From IMG/VR virus record IMGVR_UViG_3300021519_000011, positions 1 through 61,084 of that record: a stretch of DNA of 61,084 nt. One strand, given 5' to 3'. The notes below the pieces were generated by a model that saw only the letters and a program-made list of their open reading frames with translations, ran no database searches and was not told the origin of the DNA. The DNA is from a virus. The translations under genes were made by a program, and so were the position numbers. This document shows, piece after piece, positions 1-60,913 of the stretch (within the stretch, counting starts at the first letter, position 1; every line of letters starts with the position of its first letter).

Positions 1-89
1 GCACCTAGCCTACCTAGGTGAGCCTTCAACTGAACCCTCTTTGGAGCCACAGCACCCGCCAGCCGCTCGTAGAATCGGTGCTAGCTTCG
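1..89. repeat. Left copy of 89-bp terminal direct repeat
   Basis: This stretch recurs at the right end of the window (60996-61084) with two substitutions, at positions 39 (C here, T there) and 67 (T here, C there). It opens with a 7-bp hairpin, CACCTAG/CTAGGTG with a 5-base loop (2-20), and holds a second inverted pair, AGCACC/GGTGCT (51-56 and 77-82). The simplest reading is an assembly overlap of a circular or permuted genome, with the mismatches coming from population variants. A true terminal repeat is possible but unproven. Confidence 0.9.
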
Positions 90-289
90 CCGCCGATATA
101 TGCACTATTCCGTCTACTACCCCCAGTAGTGCTGATACCTAACCCGCTGGTGTATTTGAAGCCGCCCAGATTAGACAGCAGAAATGAAAAAACCCCATAC
201 AACTGGAGTCTATTTTGGTCATTCGCTTATGTTTGTCAATCCAAGAACCAAGCATAAGAAAACTTTGCATAGACCCCATGTGTATAGGG

Positions 290-376
290 TTTCTTGGTTG
301 ATTATACATTAATGAACCGACCAAAGTCCATTGCTGCAAGGAAACTATAACACGGGTTTCAAATCCGTGCAAGAAA
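290..376 (+). other. tRNA-like cloverleaf, no clear anticodon arm
   Basis: A 7-bp closing stem (TTTCTTG at 290-296 with CAAGAAA at 370-376) encloses three hairpins. A D-arm-like hairpin is at 297-317. A bulged middle hairpin is at 325-346. A T-arm-like hairpin is at 351-369, with CACGGG/TCCGTG flanking a TTTCAAA loop. The closing and T-arm stems together give about 13 bp of stacked helix, as in tRNA. No 7-base anticodon loop or CCA end is visible, so it is not called a tRNA. It may be a decayed tRNA, a tRNA mimic or chance. Confidence 0.35.
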
Positions 377-382
377 AAGAAT

Positions 383-410
383 GGGGGGAAGGTATGCTCA
401 CTTCACCCCC
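383..410. other. Strong GC hairpin
   Basis: A G-run followed by GAAG (383-391) pairs with CTTC followed by a C-run (401-410), with one mismatch and a 9-base loop. No U-tract follows on the plus strand, so a standard terminator is not supported. It sits just after the tRNA-like fold. Confidence 0.5.
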
Positions 411-478
411 GAGTGCCGTGTGGAGAGGAGCCACTGGCAAAGGATACCCGAGGAAGGTATTAGCGCAAATATACCACA

Positions 479-498
479 TACTGTATAGATATACATAA
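479..498. promoter_or_regulatory. LexA-box-like palindrome (SOS-like site 1)
   Basis: The 20 bases TACTGTATAGATATACATAA match the enterobacterial SOS-box consensus (TACTGTATATATATACAGTA) at 17 positions and contain the core TGTA-N6-TACA. It directly abuts the AGGGTAAACCCT dyad at 498-509. The phage encodes a LexA-type DNA-binding domain (50107-50331) that could be the ligand; that link is inference. Confidence 0.5.
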
Positions 499-6857: not shown

Positions 6858-7148
6858 ATGAGGAAGATATTAATAGCTGTATGTTTATACAGTGGTGCTG
6901 TATCGGCACAGATAACAAGCTGGGAGAACAGTCCGATGAACTTTAAAAATTCAGATATGAATTGGAATAATAGTTCTAGCAATTTTAAAAATTCTCCATA
7001 TAATTGGGAAACCAGTGAATACAACTACAACACAAAATCTGGGGTTTACGATAATAGCGGTAACCGCCTTGGTTATGAAACAATGAACAGAGACGGCACA
7101 ATAAACTTTTACGATGACAGCGGCAACCGCGTGGCATACGGAAGATAG
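6858..7148 (+). CDS. Exported Asn/Ser repeat protein
   Basis: 96 aa. The first 18 residues are a signal peptide (M-R-K, hydrophobic stretch to A-V-S-A, cleavage before Q-I-T). The mature part has about seven short imperfect repeats built on W/F/Y-x-N-S and N-S-x-x-N-[FW], then two copies of D-N/D-S-G-N-R-[LV]-x-Y near the end. The periodic aromatic-Asn pattern suggests a small beta-solenoid or surface adhesin in the periplasm or outside. An SOS-box-like palindrome lies in its first codons (6875-6894). Confidence 0.75.
   Translation: MRKILIAVCLYSGAVSAQITSWENSPMNFKNSDMNWNNSSSNFKNSPYNWETSEYNYNTKSGVYDNSGNRLGYETMNRDGTINFYDDSGNRVAYGR
6875..6894. promoter_or_regulatory. LexA-box-like palindrome (SOS-like site 2)
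   Basis: AGCTGTATGTTTATACAGTG contains CTGTAT-N4-ATACAG, a perfect inverted repeat with the TGTA-N6-TACA core. It overlaps codons of the signal peptide, so regulation from inside the gene, or chance, are both possible. Confidence 0.4.
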
Positions 7149-8859: not shown

Positions 8860-9562
8860 TATTGATGTATCCAAGTACACAGAGAAGAAGAATGGCCTTA
8901 CTTATCTGTCTTGGGCATGGGCCGTGGATCAATTATTGCTAGCTGATCCTAAAGCGCACTGGTTTTATCCAGAGTTTCAGCGCTGGGGTAATGGAACCGT
9001 AATGGTGTTCTGTACTGTTGTAGCGAATGATATCGCCCGCACAGCGCAGTTGCCCGTTATGGATTACCGTAATAAGCCTATTGCTGAACCCGATTCATTT
9101 GCTGTTAATACGGCGATGCAGCGGGCTTTAGCTAAAGCGATTGCGCTCCACGGTATTGGCTTATATATCTACAACGGTGAAGATATTCCGCCTGAATTGG
9201 GGAATGATGTAACTATGGTGGAAACAAAGCCGGTTACAAAATCTATTACCATAGAGGCCAAACCGAATGAAGCAACAATTACCATTGCAAAACCAGAAGA
9301 TAAATCTCTATTTGCCAGCGAGAAGGTATCGGCAAAGCTACCCGGAGAATGGACTCTTAAACCAATTGGAGATGACTTTATCGGGTCGTTAAATGTTGGG
9401 CTGGATGCAATGCTGCAATTAGCCGCATCACCTGAAGATGTAGCTAATATCTTTAAGGTTAATCGTTCTGCTTTTGATAAAGCCAAGGCTCAGAATCTAG
9501 ATGCATACAACGAAATGATGGCTAAATTTACCGTAACCAAGAAATCTTTAACTAAGGAATAA
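8837..9562 (+). CDS. Sak3-type single-strand annealing protein (DUF1071)
   Basis: 241 aa using the second of two adjacent ATGs (8834 and 8837), which is better spaced from AGAGG. The family signature is clear: L-T-Y-L-S-W-A-W-A (about 21-29) and A-V-N-T-A-M-Q-R-A-L-A-K-A-I-A-L-H-G-I-G-L-Y-I (split here: A-V-N-T-A-M, Q-R-A-L-A-K-A-I, H-G-I-G-L-Y). Sak3 proteins are Rad52-like recombinases that anneal complementary single strands. With the upstream nuclease it forms a Red-type recombination pair. Confidence 0.9.
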   Translation: MEYKELRSIDVSKYTEKKNGLTYLSWAWAVDQLLLADPKAHWFYPEFQRWGNGTVMVFCTVVANDIARTAQLPVMDYRNKPIAEPDSFAVNTAMQRALAKAIALHGIGLYIYNGEDIPPELGNDVTMVETKPVTKSITIEAKPNEATITIAKPEDKSLFASEKVSAKLPGEWTLKPIGDDFIGSLNVGLDAMLQLAASPEDVANIFKVNRSAFDKAKAQNLDAYNEMMAKFTVTKKSLTKE

Positions 9563-48625: not shown

Positions 48626-50110
48626 CTAGTAATACGCGGTTTTGCGTCTATAAATTGGTTCATCTACTTCGTCTGATGGTAGCCGAATAAAGCCGCCTTT
48701 TCTAAAACGGATCAAAGCCTGTGTGGAGGAGTCCACTAAGTCATCGTGATCCGAGTTTGGAAAAGAAGCCATTTCTTCGATTACTTCATCAGCCCACCTT
48801 TTGCCGGGCGCCCACACCTTGCCAGACGCAAATAAATCTGTTACGGAATTCAGCCTTGCTATCTTATCATTACCACGGGTAGGTGTAAACTCTGTTACGG
48901 GTATACCCATACGCCTTAATTCAAATATAAGTGGCGTTCCTGAGGCTTTTGCCTCAACAATAAAAGCATCTGGTTCCCATTCTTTGTACATCTTAAAAGC
49001 CCGTTCTTTAAGTTCTGGGAACTCTAGCCTTTCTTTCATCGCATCCAAAAGAATAATATTAGGCTGCATCTCATCTTCATTAAGATAAAAAACTCCCCAT
49101 GTTGTGCAGGCTGAATAGTCCGAACGTTCATTCTTAGTAAAGGCGGTATCCCAAGATTGGATAATAAACTCACACTTCGGCGGGGTATCGGTTTCCCATT
49201 TCTGCCACCAATCTCTTTTAACTAGGGCGCCCTCTTCTGAGGTAGGACTCTGTTGATACTGAGCGTTCCATTTAGAAACTGGAAGTTCTTCCTTTAAAGC
49301 GAGTAATTCATTTAGGGGCCAGAACGCGGGCCATAATGGTCTTTCGCTAGGCAGTATCGCTGGGAAACTAATTACTTCCCACTCATCGCCATCTCGCTCA
49401 AAGGCCGATTTTAAAATTCTTCCAGTTAAATCTTTTAGGCTCCAGCGGGTCATAACAACCACAATCGCTCCGCCCGGCTGTAGTCGTTGTCTTGGACCAG
49501 AGGAATACCACTCAAAGACCTTATCGTAAACCTCTGGGTTAGTCGCGGCAATCGCGGCCTCTTGCTCCGAGTGGGGATCGTCAATAATCAAAAGGTCCGC
49601 ACCTTTACCAGTAACGGTACCGCCAACACCAATAGCGAAGTAAGTGCCCCCCTTATTTGTGTCCCAGCGCCCCGCAGCCTTGGAATCTGATTTCAAATTT
49701 ACTTCTGGAAATACCTCGTGGTACTGTGAGGATCCTACCAAGTTCCGTACTTTTCGTCCAAAGCCAACAGCCAGTTCCGCAGTATTGGAACACTGGATAA
49801 TCTTCTTATCAGGGAACTTTCCCAGAAACCACGCAGGAAGCATGTAACTAGCAAACTCAGACTTAGTATGGCGAGGAGGCATATTAATAATAAGACGACG
49901 AAGTTTTCCATCTGCTATATCCTGAAATTTCTGGGCCATAATCTTATGATGACCACCGTTAATAAAGCCGGGCCACATTTGGTGCACAAAGGCCATAAAA
50001 TCATTCTGGGACTTTTCCCGTTTTAGGGAGTCTTTGTATTCCTGAGCCATAGCAAACAAAACATCTTGTTCTTCTTCTGGAAGGCTTTCGATTAGTTTTT
50101 CTAGCTTCAC
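48626..50110 (-). CDS. terL: Terminase large subunit
   Basis: 494 aa. ATPase: M-P-P-R-H-T-K-S (about 77-84) is the deviant Walker A and L-L-I-I-D-D-P-H the Walker B. Nuclease: Q-S-W-D-T-A-F, F-I-V-E-A-K-A-S-G and D-H-D-D-L-V-D-S supply the RNase H-type acids. It drives and ends DNA packaging. It overlaps the mini-LexA gene by 4 bases. Confidence 0.95.
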   Translation of the reverse strand: MKLEKLIESLPEEEQDVLFAMAQEYKDSLKREKSQNDFMAFVHQMWPGFINGGHHKIMAQKFQDIADGKLRRLIINMPPRHTKSEFASYMLPAWFLGKFPDKKIIQCSNTAELAVGFGRKVRNLVGSSQYHEVFPEVNLKSDSKAAGRWDTNKGGTYFAIGVGGTVTGKGADLLIIDDPHSEQEAAIAATNPEVYDKVFEWYSSGPRQRLQPGGAIVVVMTRWSLKDLTGRILKSAFERDGDEWEVISFPAILPSERPLWPAFWPLNELLALKEELPVSKWNAQYQQSPTSEEGALVKRDWWQKWETDTPPKCEFIIQSWDTAFTKNERSDYSACTTWGVFYLNEDEMQPNIILLDAMKERLEFPELKERAFKMYKEWEPDAFIVEAKASGTPLIFELRRMGIPVTEFTPTRGNDKIARLNSVTDLFASGKVWAPGKRWADEVIEEMASFPNSDHDDLVDSSTQALIRFRKGGFIRLPSDEVDEPIYRRKTAYY

Positions 50111-50331
50111 TCTAGTTTATGCACCCTAATATACGAAGGCCGAATACTGCGGGCGTGTCTGGGCAGCATTTTGCAATACCCAAGTTCTACTAACTTCTTC
50201 ATAGTACGATGTACATTACCTCTACCCTTATCGCCCGTTATTTCCATAATGTAATCTATAGACGGACCAAACCCATGCATTTTCCAATGCTTATTAATAA
50301 TGTCATATATGTAGGCTTGCTTCTCAGTCAT
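50107..50331 (-). CDS. Mini-LexA: LexA-type DNA-binding domain without a peptidase
   Basis: 74 aa from the ATG at 50331. The longer upstream frame is low complexity and lacks a site. M-T-E-K-Q-A-Y-I-Y-D-I-I, G-F-G-P-S-I-D-Y-I-M-E-I-T-G, G-N-V-H-R-T-M-K-K-L-V-E-L-G-Y, then R-S-I-R-P follow the LexA N-terminal winged helix (compare L-T-x-x-Q, G-x-P-P-T, L-K-A-L-A-x-K-G, R-G-I-R-L). No S24 autocleavage domain follows, so RecA-triggered self-cleavage is not expected. A perfect TGTAGATATCTACA lies 13 bases upstream. Probably a small repressor that binds this and the other LexA-box-like sites. Confidence 0.75.
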   Translation of the reverse strand: MTEKQAYIYDIINKHWKMHGFGPSIDYIMEITGDKGRGNVHRTMKKLVELGYCKMLPRHARSIRPSYIRVHKLE

Positions 50332-50338
50332 ATTCTTC

Positions 50339-50364
50339 AGCTTCTGTAGATATCTACACAAGCT
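50339..50364. promoter_or_regulatory. LexA-box-like palindrome before mini-LexA (site 3)
   Basis: A perfect 14-bp palindrome TGTAGATATCTACA (50345-50358), extended by AGCTT/AAGCT with one mismatch, starts 8 bases upstream of the mini-LexA start. The central 16 bases CTGTAGATATCTACAC keep the CTGT-N8-ACA form. Likely an autoregulatory operator. Confidence 0.5.
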
Positions 50365-50389
50365 GCTTTTATAAAAATATACATACCCC

Positions 50390-51256
50390 CTACCCCTTTG
50401 TTTTAGAAACAGAAGGGGGGGTGTTCCCTGTAGGAACTTCTTGCCAATCGGGGTGGTTTTTTGTACCCCCACCCCCCTCTTCATCATCATTTCTATGTGG
50501 TAACGTTTCCACATGCGTGTAACTCGTTGATTCTATTGGGGCGTTTTTGGCTAAATTCGTTTTCTTTGGTGATTGTGTGTCTGGAATAGTATGTAGTAAT
50601 TGCGCCCGATCATTTTGGGACAAGGTGGGGTCGGGAGTGGGTGGGGTCGCGCCCGTGCCGTCCTCGAATGGTGCTGGCCTTGGAAGCCCGCTTATCTCCG
50701 CTAGCAACTCGATAGCCTCTAAGTCCTCGCCTATATCAACTGTATTCGCTTGCATGGCTTCTTTTATCTGCGCTAATAGATCGGCGCGTAGTTTATCGCT
50801 GGACTTGTGAACGATCTGCTCGCTTACGGACTTGTATACGGATAACTCAGCCACTTGGCCTAGCTTCGATAGGGCTTGTATGCGCTCTCCTGCCTTACTA
50901 TTGGGGTCTGTAGCTTCCTTTGTAAGCTGAGATACTACAAGGGAACGTAACCGCCTTATCATTTCACTACTCGTTTGATAATCAACATATGCTTTAGCCC
51001 TCTCGAGCGCCTCTACTTCTGCCTGTATTCTGCTATCTTTTGCCAATCTGCTCGCATTGTCGCTCATGGTCTTGCGCTTGCCCTTGTGCTGGTAGGCTTT
51101 ATCGAATGCTTCCGTTTGATTGAGGCCATCTACTAATCCCCGCGCAAACTGTTTCTGCTTATGGGTTAGGTTCCGCTGATTGCCTAATATGGCCTCGGCA
51201 GGTAACTGCGCTAGGCTCTGTTTAATCTGCTCTTTACTTAGCTTTTGTATCTTCAT
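50390..51256 (-). CDS. terS: Terminase small subunit
   Basis: 288 aa. N-terminal K-Q-F-A-R-G-L-V-D-G-L-N-Q-T-E-A-F then A-S-R-L-A-K-D-S-R-I is the helix-turn-helix of Terminase_2-type small subunits, followed by a helical oligomerisation region to about residue 190 and a disordered Pro/Thr/Asn-rich tail. It would recognise the packaging site and load the large subunit. Its presumed promoter overlaps a LexA-box-like site (51298-51317). Confidence 0.8.
   Translation of the reverse strand: MKIQKLSKEQIKQSLAQLPAEAILGNQRNLTHKQKQFARGLVDGLNQTEAFDKAYQHKGKRKTMSDNASRLAKDSRIQAEVEALERAKAYVDYQTSSEMIRRLRSLVVSQLTKEATDPNSKAGERIQALSKLGQVAELSVYKSVSEQIVHKSSDKLRADLLAQIKEAMQANTVDIGEDLEAIELLAEISGLPRPAPFEDGTGATPPTPDPTLSQNDRAQLLHTIPDTQSPKKTNLAKNAPIESTSYTHVETLPHRNDDEEGGGGTKNHPDWQEVPTGNTPPSVSKTKG
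50493..50514. promoter_or_regulatory. Inverted repeat ATGTGG/CCACAT
   Basis: ATGTGG (50495-50500) and CCACAT (50509-50514) flank TAACGTTT. The first 15 bases match 513-527 exactly. It lies inside the terS 3' coding region, 160 bp before mini-LexA. Possibly an operator or origin site. Confidence 0.4.
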
Positions 51257-51592
51257 TTGATGGGTATAGATTAGGAATTAGGCCATATTATCACAACTAC
51301 TGTATAAGCATACAGTAAAACGGTGGATTACAAGTATCTGCTTTTGTTTCTCTCCCTATAAGATTACCAACTAAGCTATTCCAGAACGGAAGATTAGCGG
51401 GCTTTTAATTTAATCTAGCCCCTGACACTTTTTAAAACGAGCGTCTTTACATATAAGACGTAAGGTAAATTATTTAAAGATATACCCTCACAAAATCGAT
51501 TTTCAACTGTCCTATATGTAAGACCTAAGATTTTAGTTAATCAATCGTCTTAGTAGTAGAAGTCCCTTAAACCTAACGGAGATTTAAACAAA
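51257..51592. promoter_or_regulatory. Divergent regulatory region between terS and the rightward small-gene block
   Basis: 336 bp without a gene. Leftward: GATAAT (51292-51287) as a possible -10 for terS, overlapped upstream by the 51298-51317 palindrome. Rightward: a hairpin CGTCTT/AAGACG (51444-51462), then two direct repeats, AAGACGTAAG (51457-51466) and AAGACCTAAG (51520-51529), before a GGAG site near the 51593 start. Nothing resembling a tRNA passes inspection. Confidence 0.6.
51298..51317. promoter_or_regulatory. LexA-box-like palindrome before terS (site 4)
   Basis: TACTGTATAAGCATACAGTA differs from the E. coli SOS-box consensus only at three central bases, and both 8-base arms are perfect inverted repeats. 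It overlaps the expected -35 of the terS promoter and lies 42 bases from its start. A repressor binding here would hold down the packaging operon. Confidence 0.65.
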
Positions 51593-59798: not shown

Positions 59799-60913
59799 TA
59801 GAATTTATCAGTATCGTTTCCAAAGGTTTCCCAACCTTCTCGTTTCTCACGGCTAAAGTATTCCAGCTTTCTACCAATCGTAACCTCATCTACCATCTGA
59901 TAAAACGCATCTGGCTTACGGCTATGTTGGCGGCGCGATTCTCTAATAATGTCCCGCCATGTAGTGTTATTCCATTTTGGTTTGCCTTTAACCGCAACCA
60001 AACAAAACTCGCACTGCATTCTTAGCCAGCTTCCCATGCCAATTTTTTCTTTATCCCATACCATTGTTGCCTTATATTCAAAACCCCAATGATTTAGTAG
60101 CTCTTTAGCATCAAAGATAAATTGATGGGTAGTCCATAGGAATACCACGCTATCTTTGGCAAAAGGAATCTCCATCTTCAATAGCTCATCTTGCTTCATC
60201 TCTGGGTAAGGATTGGCTACACGGCTGCCTTCTGGATCATACTTGCGCCCGTAATTCCAAGGAGGATCAAGCACAACTATCTCAAATACACCCGATGGAA
60301 GAACGGCCTTACCGGTAGCAATATCTTCTTTTTGTTTGGCTACGTCTTCCTCGTGTTGTTGCTTTTTTTCTGCATTTTTAATTTGTTTGTGGGCTTCATT
60401 AATACTAATCTCACCTTTAGCTAAAGATTTCTTTGCTTCCTCTGATCCTTTTTCCTCAATCTTTTTAATTTTATCAATCGTATTATTTGATATTCCAGCT
60501 ATTTTTGCTAACTCTTCTCTGGTGGTTACAGCTTCGGTAGATATCTTCATAAGCTGAGGATTTTTTCCTCCTGAGCTGGTTTTTTGATTTACCTTAGCTC
60601 TTGCAGCAATTTCTGACTCTAAACGTAACGCCAAAGTACCGCGAACATAGTTGTTTAAACTTCTACGCCCAAATTGATTGGTAATAATCCATTCAATTAC
60701 CTCACTGCGATTTTCAAAAGCGCGATCTATTGTTTTAAATGGCAGATCATTGCGCTTACAAATGTCATAACGGTTATGCCCGTCTACTAACACCCCGTTC
60801 CAAAGAACTAATGGGTCTCTACAACCATCCCGCTTAATGTTTTCCTCAAGTTGTAAAAGCTCTGCTGGTGCTAACTCCGGAATTAAATCTTTAAACTCGT
60901 TATCAATTTTCAT
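59798..60913 (-). CDS. ParB-domain/MT-A70 adenine methyltransferase fusion
   Basis: 371 aa. Residues about 10-80 form a ParB N-domain (V-L-V-D-G-H-N-R-Y-D), then a helix-turn-helix (R-E-E-L-A-K-I-A-G-I-S-N-N-T) and a charged linker. Residues about 208-371 are an MT-A70 methyltransferase with D216-P-P-W219. It would methylate adenine N6 at specific sites. SD GAGGAAAAG is strong. First gene of the leftward operon after the non-coding region. Confidence 0.88.
   Translation of the reverse strand: MKIDNEFKDLIPELAPAELLQLEENIKRDGCRDPLVLWNGVLVDGHNRYDICKRNDLPFKTIDRAFENRSEVIEWIITNQFGRRSLNNYVRGTLALRLESEIAARAKVNQKTSSGGKNPQLMKISTEAVTTREELAKIAGISNNTIDKIKKIEEKGSEEAKKSLAKGEISINEAHKQIKNAEKKQQHEEDVAKQKEDIATGKAVLPSGVFEIVVLDPPWNYGRKYDPEGSRVANPYPEMKQDELLKMEIPFAKDSVVFLWTTHQFIFDAKELLNHWGFEYKATMVWDKEKIGMGSWLRMQCEFCLVAVKGKPKWNNTTWRDIIRESRRQHSRKPDAFYQMVDEVTIGRKLEYFSREKREGWETFGNDTDKF

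Follow-up and report, generated by a model that had tools for sequence, protein, structure and literature searches.

A LexA-type operator at a predicted late promoter and a LexA-like protein beside the terminase in a clade of uncultured phages

Results

We analysed a 61,084-base virus record (IMG/VR IMGVR_UViG_3300021519_000011; this whole stretch is called the window), in which a small LexA-like gene, mini-LexA, lies between the terminase genes terS and terL and a LexA-type operator overlaps the promoter predicted upstream of terS. The relatives used for comparison are uncultured, metagenomic contigs, gathered by a TerL-based search and by a mini-LexA-based search. The locus comprises the following features:

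51300-51315, minus strand: LexA-type operator (SOS box) CTGTATGCTTATACAG, within a perfect-arm palindrome at 51298-51317; kept in relatives
51285-51293, minus strand: extended -10 TGA-TAATAT of the terS promoter, read from sequence, 6 nucleotides (nt) downstream of the box
50390-51256, minus strand: terS, terminase small subunit, first gene of the putative late operon (PF03592, 32.5 bits)
50107-50331, minus strand: mini-LexA, 74 amino acids, a predicted LexA-type winged helix with no S24 peptidase (Pfam, PHROG, AlphaFold2, Foldseek)
48626-50110, minus strand: terL, terminase large subunit (PF17289; phrog_38, E=5.7e-111)

A dyad scan of 61 non-redundant terS upstream regions, covering 256 four-base arms at 15 spacings (3,840 dyads) with 500 shuffles, returned CTGT-N8-ACAG as the most frequent dyad, followed by nested forms of the same box. 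The exact dyad occurs in 17/61 regions, whereas the shuffles averaged 0.07 and never exceeded 2, and the sequence flanking the boxes differs strongly among relatives. Sixteen boxes are paired with an extended -10 (pattern TGN-TAnnnT), and in 12 of these pairs it begins 6 nt past the box; at this distance the box spans about -37 to -22 and covers the -35 region. Tandem boxes, 17-18 or 32 base pairs apart, occur at several promoters; a box over the -35 region, at a mostly fixed spacing and often in tandem, fits a repressor operator. This palindrome, the gamma/betaproteobacterial LexA operator, serves as the SOS box in E. coli (PMC8565304) and in most Betaproteobacteria (PMC6595937). The window's copy is an exact, conserved palindrome overlapping the predicted promoter, and the original prediction, made from this DNA alone, was borne out in placing a site over the terS promoter at 51298-51317: together these features make a convincing case that 51300-51315 is a true LexA-type operator. 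In the TerL tree the boxes fall mostly within one clade (16/23 rows, support 100/98), and box-less relatives have other promoter-like sequences upstream of terS. Because the genes from terS (51256) to about 12015 share one direction, the terS promoter looks like that of the late operon. We also observed a TATACCC-like motif just upstream of the terS start in many clades (window 51257-51275, minus strand), with no apparent Shine-Dalgarno sequence.

A second box lies near the opposite end of the window, at the promoter of a putative small RNA that we call RNA1:

481-496, minus strand: second LexA-type operator ATGTATATCTATACAG, at the RNA1 promoter; equivalents in relatives
468-476, minus strand: extended -10 TGG-TATATT of RNA1, recognised by its sequence
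374-466, minus strand: RNA1, putative small RNA of about 93 nt, with three hairpins, the last a terminator
54-176, minus strand: RF02932 (Betaproteobacteria-1 RNA; Rfam, 89 bits), downstream of RNA1

This box is one base off the consensus (CTGT-N8-ACAT on the plus strand). Equivalent boxes occur in G001, G003, G005, G011 and G014, giving six genomes with the window, so that the site noted earlier at 479-498 proved to be shared by relatives and to precede the gene of a putative small RNA. In those relatives a -10-like sequence comes next after the box, and beyond it lies a short region closing with a terminator-like hairpin. RNA1 comprises two hairpins looped UUCCUC/CUCCUC, then a G+C-rich hairpin and a T run, and its stems are kept through base changes among relatives; the pairs were checked by hand, since a MAFFT alignment of the six RNA1 sequences misplaced the stems. 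A covariance model built on three near-identical members found RNA1 in G004 (E=8e-10) and G006 (E=6e-8), and weakly in G005, G014 and G011; with this narrow model RNA1 was not found in 24 further contigs. G004 and G006 carry a different palindrome at the RNA1 promoter. RNA1 has no Rfam match. RNA1 may be expressed, and its loops may have an anti-Shine-Dalgarno role.

RF02932 also turned up in 14 of the 29 related contigs that were searched, which makes it an RNA family of phages at least in part. It does not serve to tell box-bearing hosts apart, since box-bearing and box-less members both have it. Between RNA1 and RF02932, at 195-345 on the minus strand, a second conserved, structured, transcript-like region ends in a terminator in 8/8 aligned contigs; it has no credible Rfam match.

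The original prediction had listed four sites sharing the core TGTA-N6-TACA. All four exist, and the window holds a fifth at 8866-8879. Five sites compare with 1.22 expected, a count reached by 1/100 shuffles, so that by itself the core shows no more than mild enrichment. The sites were for this reason judged by their survival in relatives. A matrix trained on the relatives' terS promoters only and then run over the window gave its top scores at 51299 (22.2 bits), 6876 (21.3 bits) and 480 (13.6 bits); both perfect CTGTAT-N4-ATACAG sites thus exceed 20 bits, and shuffled sequence yielded no match of at least 20 bits. Conservation in relatives, part of the earlier expectation, divides the sites, holding for 51298-51317 and 479-498 and failing for 50345-50358 and 6875-6894. 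The mild enrichment and the two unconserved sites are what one would expect if the boxes were chance palindromes in an AT-rich phage. Their positional conservation at terS, far above the shuffles, and again at the RNA1 promoter makes that reading highly improbable; it is refuted for the 51300 site and is still the best account of the 6877 site. The two unconserved sites lie as follows:

50339-50364, minus strand: 26-nt hairpin before mini-LexA that includes the 50345 site; not a LexA-type operator
6877-6892, plus strand: CTGTATGTTTATACAG, inside the open reading frame (ORF) 6858-7148; probably incidental

The site at 50345-50358 had been proposed as the operator of mini-LexA itself, as little as 8 bases from its start; its end is in fact 13 nt away from the start codon, and it scores 2.3 bits with the relatives-only matrix. 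Folded as RNA, the surrounding hairpin has z=-4.9. Three relatives that share 93-99% mini-LexA identity with the window, L005, L006 and L007, carry differing hairpins at that spot (GGAGAATTCTCC; TTATCAGA-TTT-CTGATAA; CAGATATCTG), which shows that the 50345 site is not a conserved LexA-type operator. We therefore rejected an autoregulatory operator before mini-LexA. A clade-wide RNA hairpin was rejected as well, a hairpin being clear in the closest relatives only and most other upstream regions showing ordinary fold energy. In the window, G003 and G001 the hairpin has a second, genome-specific copy elsewhere, which in the window lies at 60530-60555 inside an MT-A70 methyltransferase gene. Two-copy palindromes that are alike within a genome and unlike between genomes were also observed in L054 (5778 and 16717) and L071 (12170 and 1546).

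The 6875-6894 site falls in codons 7-12 of its ORF and is shared with 1/4 orthologues (G006; not G005, G011 or G014), and on this coding position and poor conservation it was rejected as an operator. Two further palindrome families were seen. TGGAACWWGTTCCA occurs at five exact sites each in contigs G007 and G008, which belong to a group of relatives termed group B (L019-L030 and L041-L043). The AACGTT-core palindromes GGTAACGTTACC, TGTCAACGTTGACA and CTGGCAACGTTGCCAG resemble LacI-family operators and occur in L061, L064 and the window, where they lie near RNA1 (522-533) and within the terS 3' end (about 50496-50515).

The 74-amino-acid product of mini-LexA had been described as a LexA-type winged helix lacking a peptidase domain, and the profile and structure searches agree. 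It matches Pfam LexA_DNA_bind (PF01726) at 25.3 bits against a curated cut-off of 23.7, and its best PHROG match is phrog_3502 (E=1.1e-9), a family of unknown function whose profile, at 131 positions, is longer than the protein. An AlphaFold2 model computed with 37 family members in the input has a predicted local distance difference test score (pLDDT) of 92.2 and a predicted template modelling score (pTM) of 0.80, and the top PDB matches of this model in Foldseek are E. coli LexA 1jhh and 3jso, the latter a DNA complex (TMq 0.80-0.82). Mini-LexA thus shares a predicted fold and Pfam family with the N-terminal domain of E. coli LexA (1jhh, 3jso, 1lea). It differs in having only 22-23% identity, no linker and, since it stops at residue 74, none of the C-terminal S24 domain through which full LexA cleaves itself and dimerises. 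The helix-III residues with which E. coli LexA touches CTGT are S39, N41, A42, E44 and E45 (PMC3091678); mini-LexA keeps 0/5 of them, the aligned residues being G36, G38, N39, H41 and R42. No association of mini-LexA with anti-phage defence was found.

These residues bear on whether mini-LexA reads the boxes, as the original prediction supposed in suggesting that it hijacks or blocks host SOS control. Mini-LexA would then be a non-cleavable reader, exerting feedback repression from the late operon on terS and RNA1 beyond SOS relief, or competing with host LexA. Its predicted LexA DNA-binding fold, its place within the box-carrying operon and its presence in every box-bearing relative examined would suit such a role. 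However, the recognition helix GRGNVHRTMKKLV is identical in the window and in group B, whose terS has no box, and the helix is altered in L031/L036 and L104, which have the box. With the LexA base contacts also replaced, the CTGT box is probably not the target of mini-LexA, which probably binds something else; in addition, the protein has no LexA dimerisation domain and the site upstream of its own gene is no conserved box. We consider it quite unlikely that mini-LexA reads the boxes, and the boxes and mini-LexA are probably two separate things rather than lock and key.

The ORF and its place between terS and terL were confirmed. The GTG start of terL overlaps the mini-LexA stop codon, as GTGA. 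Mini-LexA lies directly 5' of terL in 76/76 loci examined from the TerL-based search, and terL follows mini-LexA in 77/78 loci from the mini-LexA-based search, the remaining locus being truncated. This arrangement holds regardless of promoter type, and is confined so far to uncultured relatives: tblastn of mini-LexA against named phages gave no homologue, and the five named phages nearest by TerL have no mini-LexA ORF before terL. Conservation of mini-LexA is about as high as that of TerL, and TerS is more variable; between L006 and the window, for example, identity is 58% for terS, 99% for mini-LexA and 99.6% for TerL. The L006 terS looks swapped as a cassette (58% identity, with flanking mini-LexA and TerL at 99-100%). 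All close TerL relatives examined have this near-invariant, apparently undescribed LexA-like protein next to TerL; a limited look at open-access literature brought up no account of a LexA-type domain with a fixed place beside TerL.

A further conserved element marks the end of terS:

50376-50397, minus strand: conserved element AGGGGTAGGGGGTATGTATATT at the terS stop, with a C-tract at about 50415-50421

The element is bipartite, CCCCCC-N(about 20)-AGGGGTGGGGGGTATATATTTT at near-fixed spacing, was detected in 87/104 loci at no more than 5 mismatches, and occurs once per genome in most contigs. It is a candidate pac/cos site or terminator. Mini-LexA might partner the packaging motor in a structural or a recognition role, as an additional terminase component that binds DNA, possibly at this CCCCCC / GGGGTGGGGGGTATATATTTT element. 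Its place beside terL whatever the promoter type, its TerL-like conservation while TerS varies, and the occurrence of the GGGGTGGGGGG element across clades but not near terL of five named phages without mini-LexA all point this way. These observations are of genomic linkage, however; an intrinsic terminator or a pac/cos site read by TerS would explain the element equally well, and where genes have been inserted before mini-LexA the element remains with terS. We regard a packaging role as a serious possibility, while leaning somewhat against it.

Discussion

The reader of the boxes is most likely host LexA, because E. coli and most Betaproteobacteria use CTGT-N8-ACAG as their SOS box and because host LexA acts in this way on Bacillus phage GIL01. 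From the operator, its spacing and conservation and the synteny, all taken from sequence, and from the predicted fold of mini-LexA, we infer with moderate confidence that the late operon stays under repression by host LexA until the SOS response. The late operon, running leftward from terS (51256) to about 12015, would start at the extended -10 promoter whose -35 region the operator covers. Host LexA on the terS box would hold the packaging and virion genes off and, through the similar operator, would likewise silence the regulatory-looking RNA1 of about 93 nt. SOS, through RecA activation by host damage or phage replication, would remove LexA and turn the late genes on. Mini-LexA, second in the operon, would be something separate, a DNA-binding factor that belongs to the terminase cassette throughout the clade and is not the usual reader of the box. 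Consistent with reading by host LexA, no S24-peptidase (PF00717) LexA/CI-type repressor was matched in eight contigs (the window and seven related contigs), and a full LexA/CI encoded by the phage was rejected on these grounds.

Several points weigh against control by host LexA. Assignment of a host through genome contigs gave just two matches, both metagenome-assembled genomes and possibly mis-binned, and was set aside. The occurrence of RF02932 in both kinds of member means that host class does not obviously explain the absence of boxes. No tyrosine/serine integrase or resolvase was found in the contigs tested, and it would be puzzling for a possibly virulent phage to await SOS; lysogeny as a plasmid may nonetheless occur. 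Finally, a phage protein, mini-LexA included, could still bind the box.

If host LexA does control these promoters, an uncultured clade would have its structural genes under host SOS control with no LexA/CI-type repressor or tyrosine/serine integrase found, and SOS would serve as a timer of late genes, not as a prophage switch. Two further outcomes of the work are the LexA-like protein, nearly invariant, next to TerL and a putative small RNA with an SOS box. More tentatively, and with considerable doubt, one may picture a LexA-family fold co-opted as a fixed third element of the packaging cassette with TerL, perhaps acting at the C-tract/G-tract element, and one sub-clade whose late operon and small RNA with anti-Shine-Dalgarno-like loops became wired to host SOS.

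The closest known system is GIL01 (LexA-gp7, gp6; PMC6182141, PMC4551915), and the earlier statement that no parallel had been described was too strong. There, host LexA represses the late promoter P3 at tandem boxes, and gp6, a truncated LexA homologue, activates this LexA-repressed promoter through a different palindrome, GaCACAnnTGTGaC at -43.5 (PMC6182141). As here, LexA-type boxes, often tandem, lie on a late promoter, and the phage likewise encodes a truncated LexA homologue without a peptidase domain. Mini-LexA might accordingly resemble gp6, recruiting RNA polymerase as a late activator from an operator of its own while host LexA represses, and the co-occurrence of a LexA-type box with a truncated LexA homologue speaks for this. 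Yet the top dyads upstream of terS were the CTGT box and its nested forms; no gp6-like palindrome and no clade-wide second dyad stood out in that scan, which a half-site or degenerate site could escape. Moreover, gp6 is an early gene in GIL01, whereas mini-LexA lies in the putative late operon, and we think a gp6-like function unlikely. Both this role and that of a packaging partner are compatible with reading of the boxes by host LexA. Unlike GIL01, the present phage is a TerS/TerL phage with CTGT-N8-ACAG boxes and with mini-LexA beside terL within the late operon. CtrA-controlled phages of Alphaproteobacteria ('lytic deferment', PMC9437464) also carry sites for a host regulator on phage promoters, with a proposed role in lysis timing; the window differs from them in its LexA-type box and in having the RNA1 promoter as a second target.

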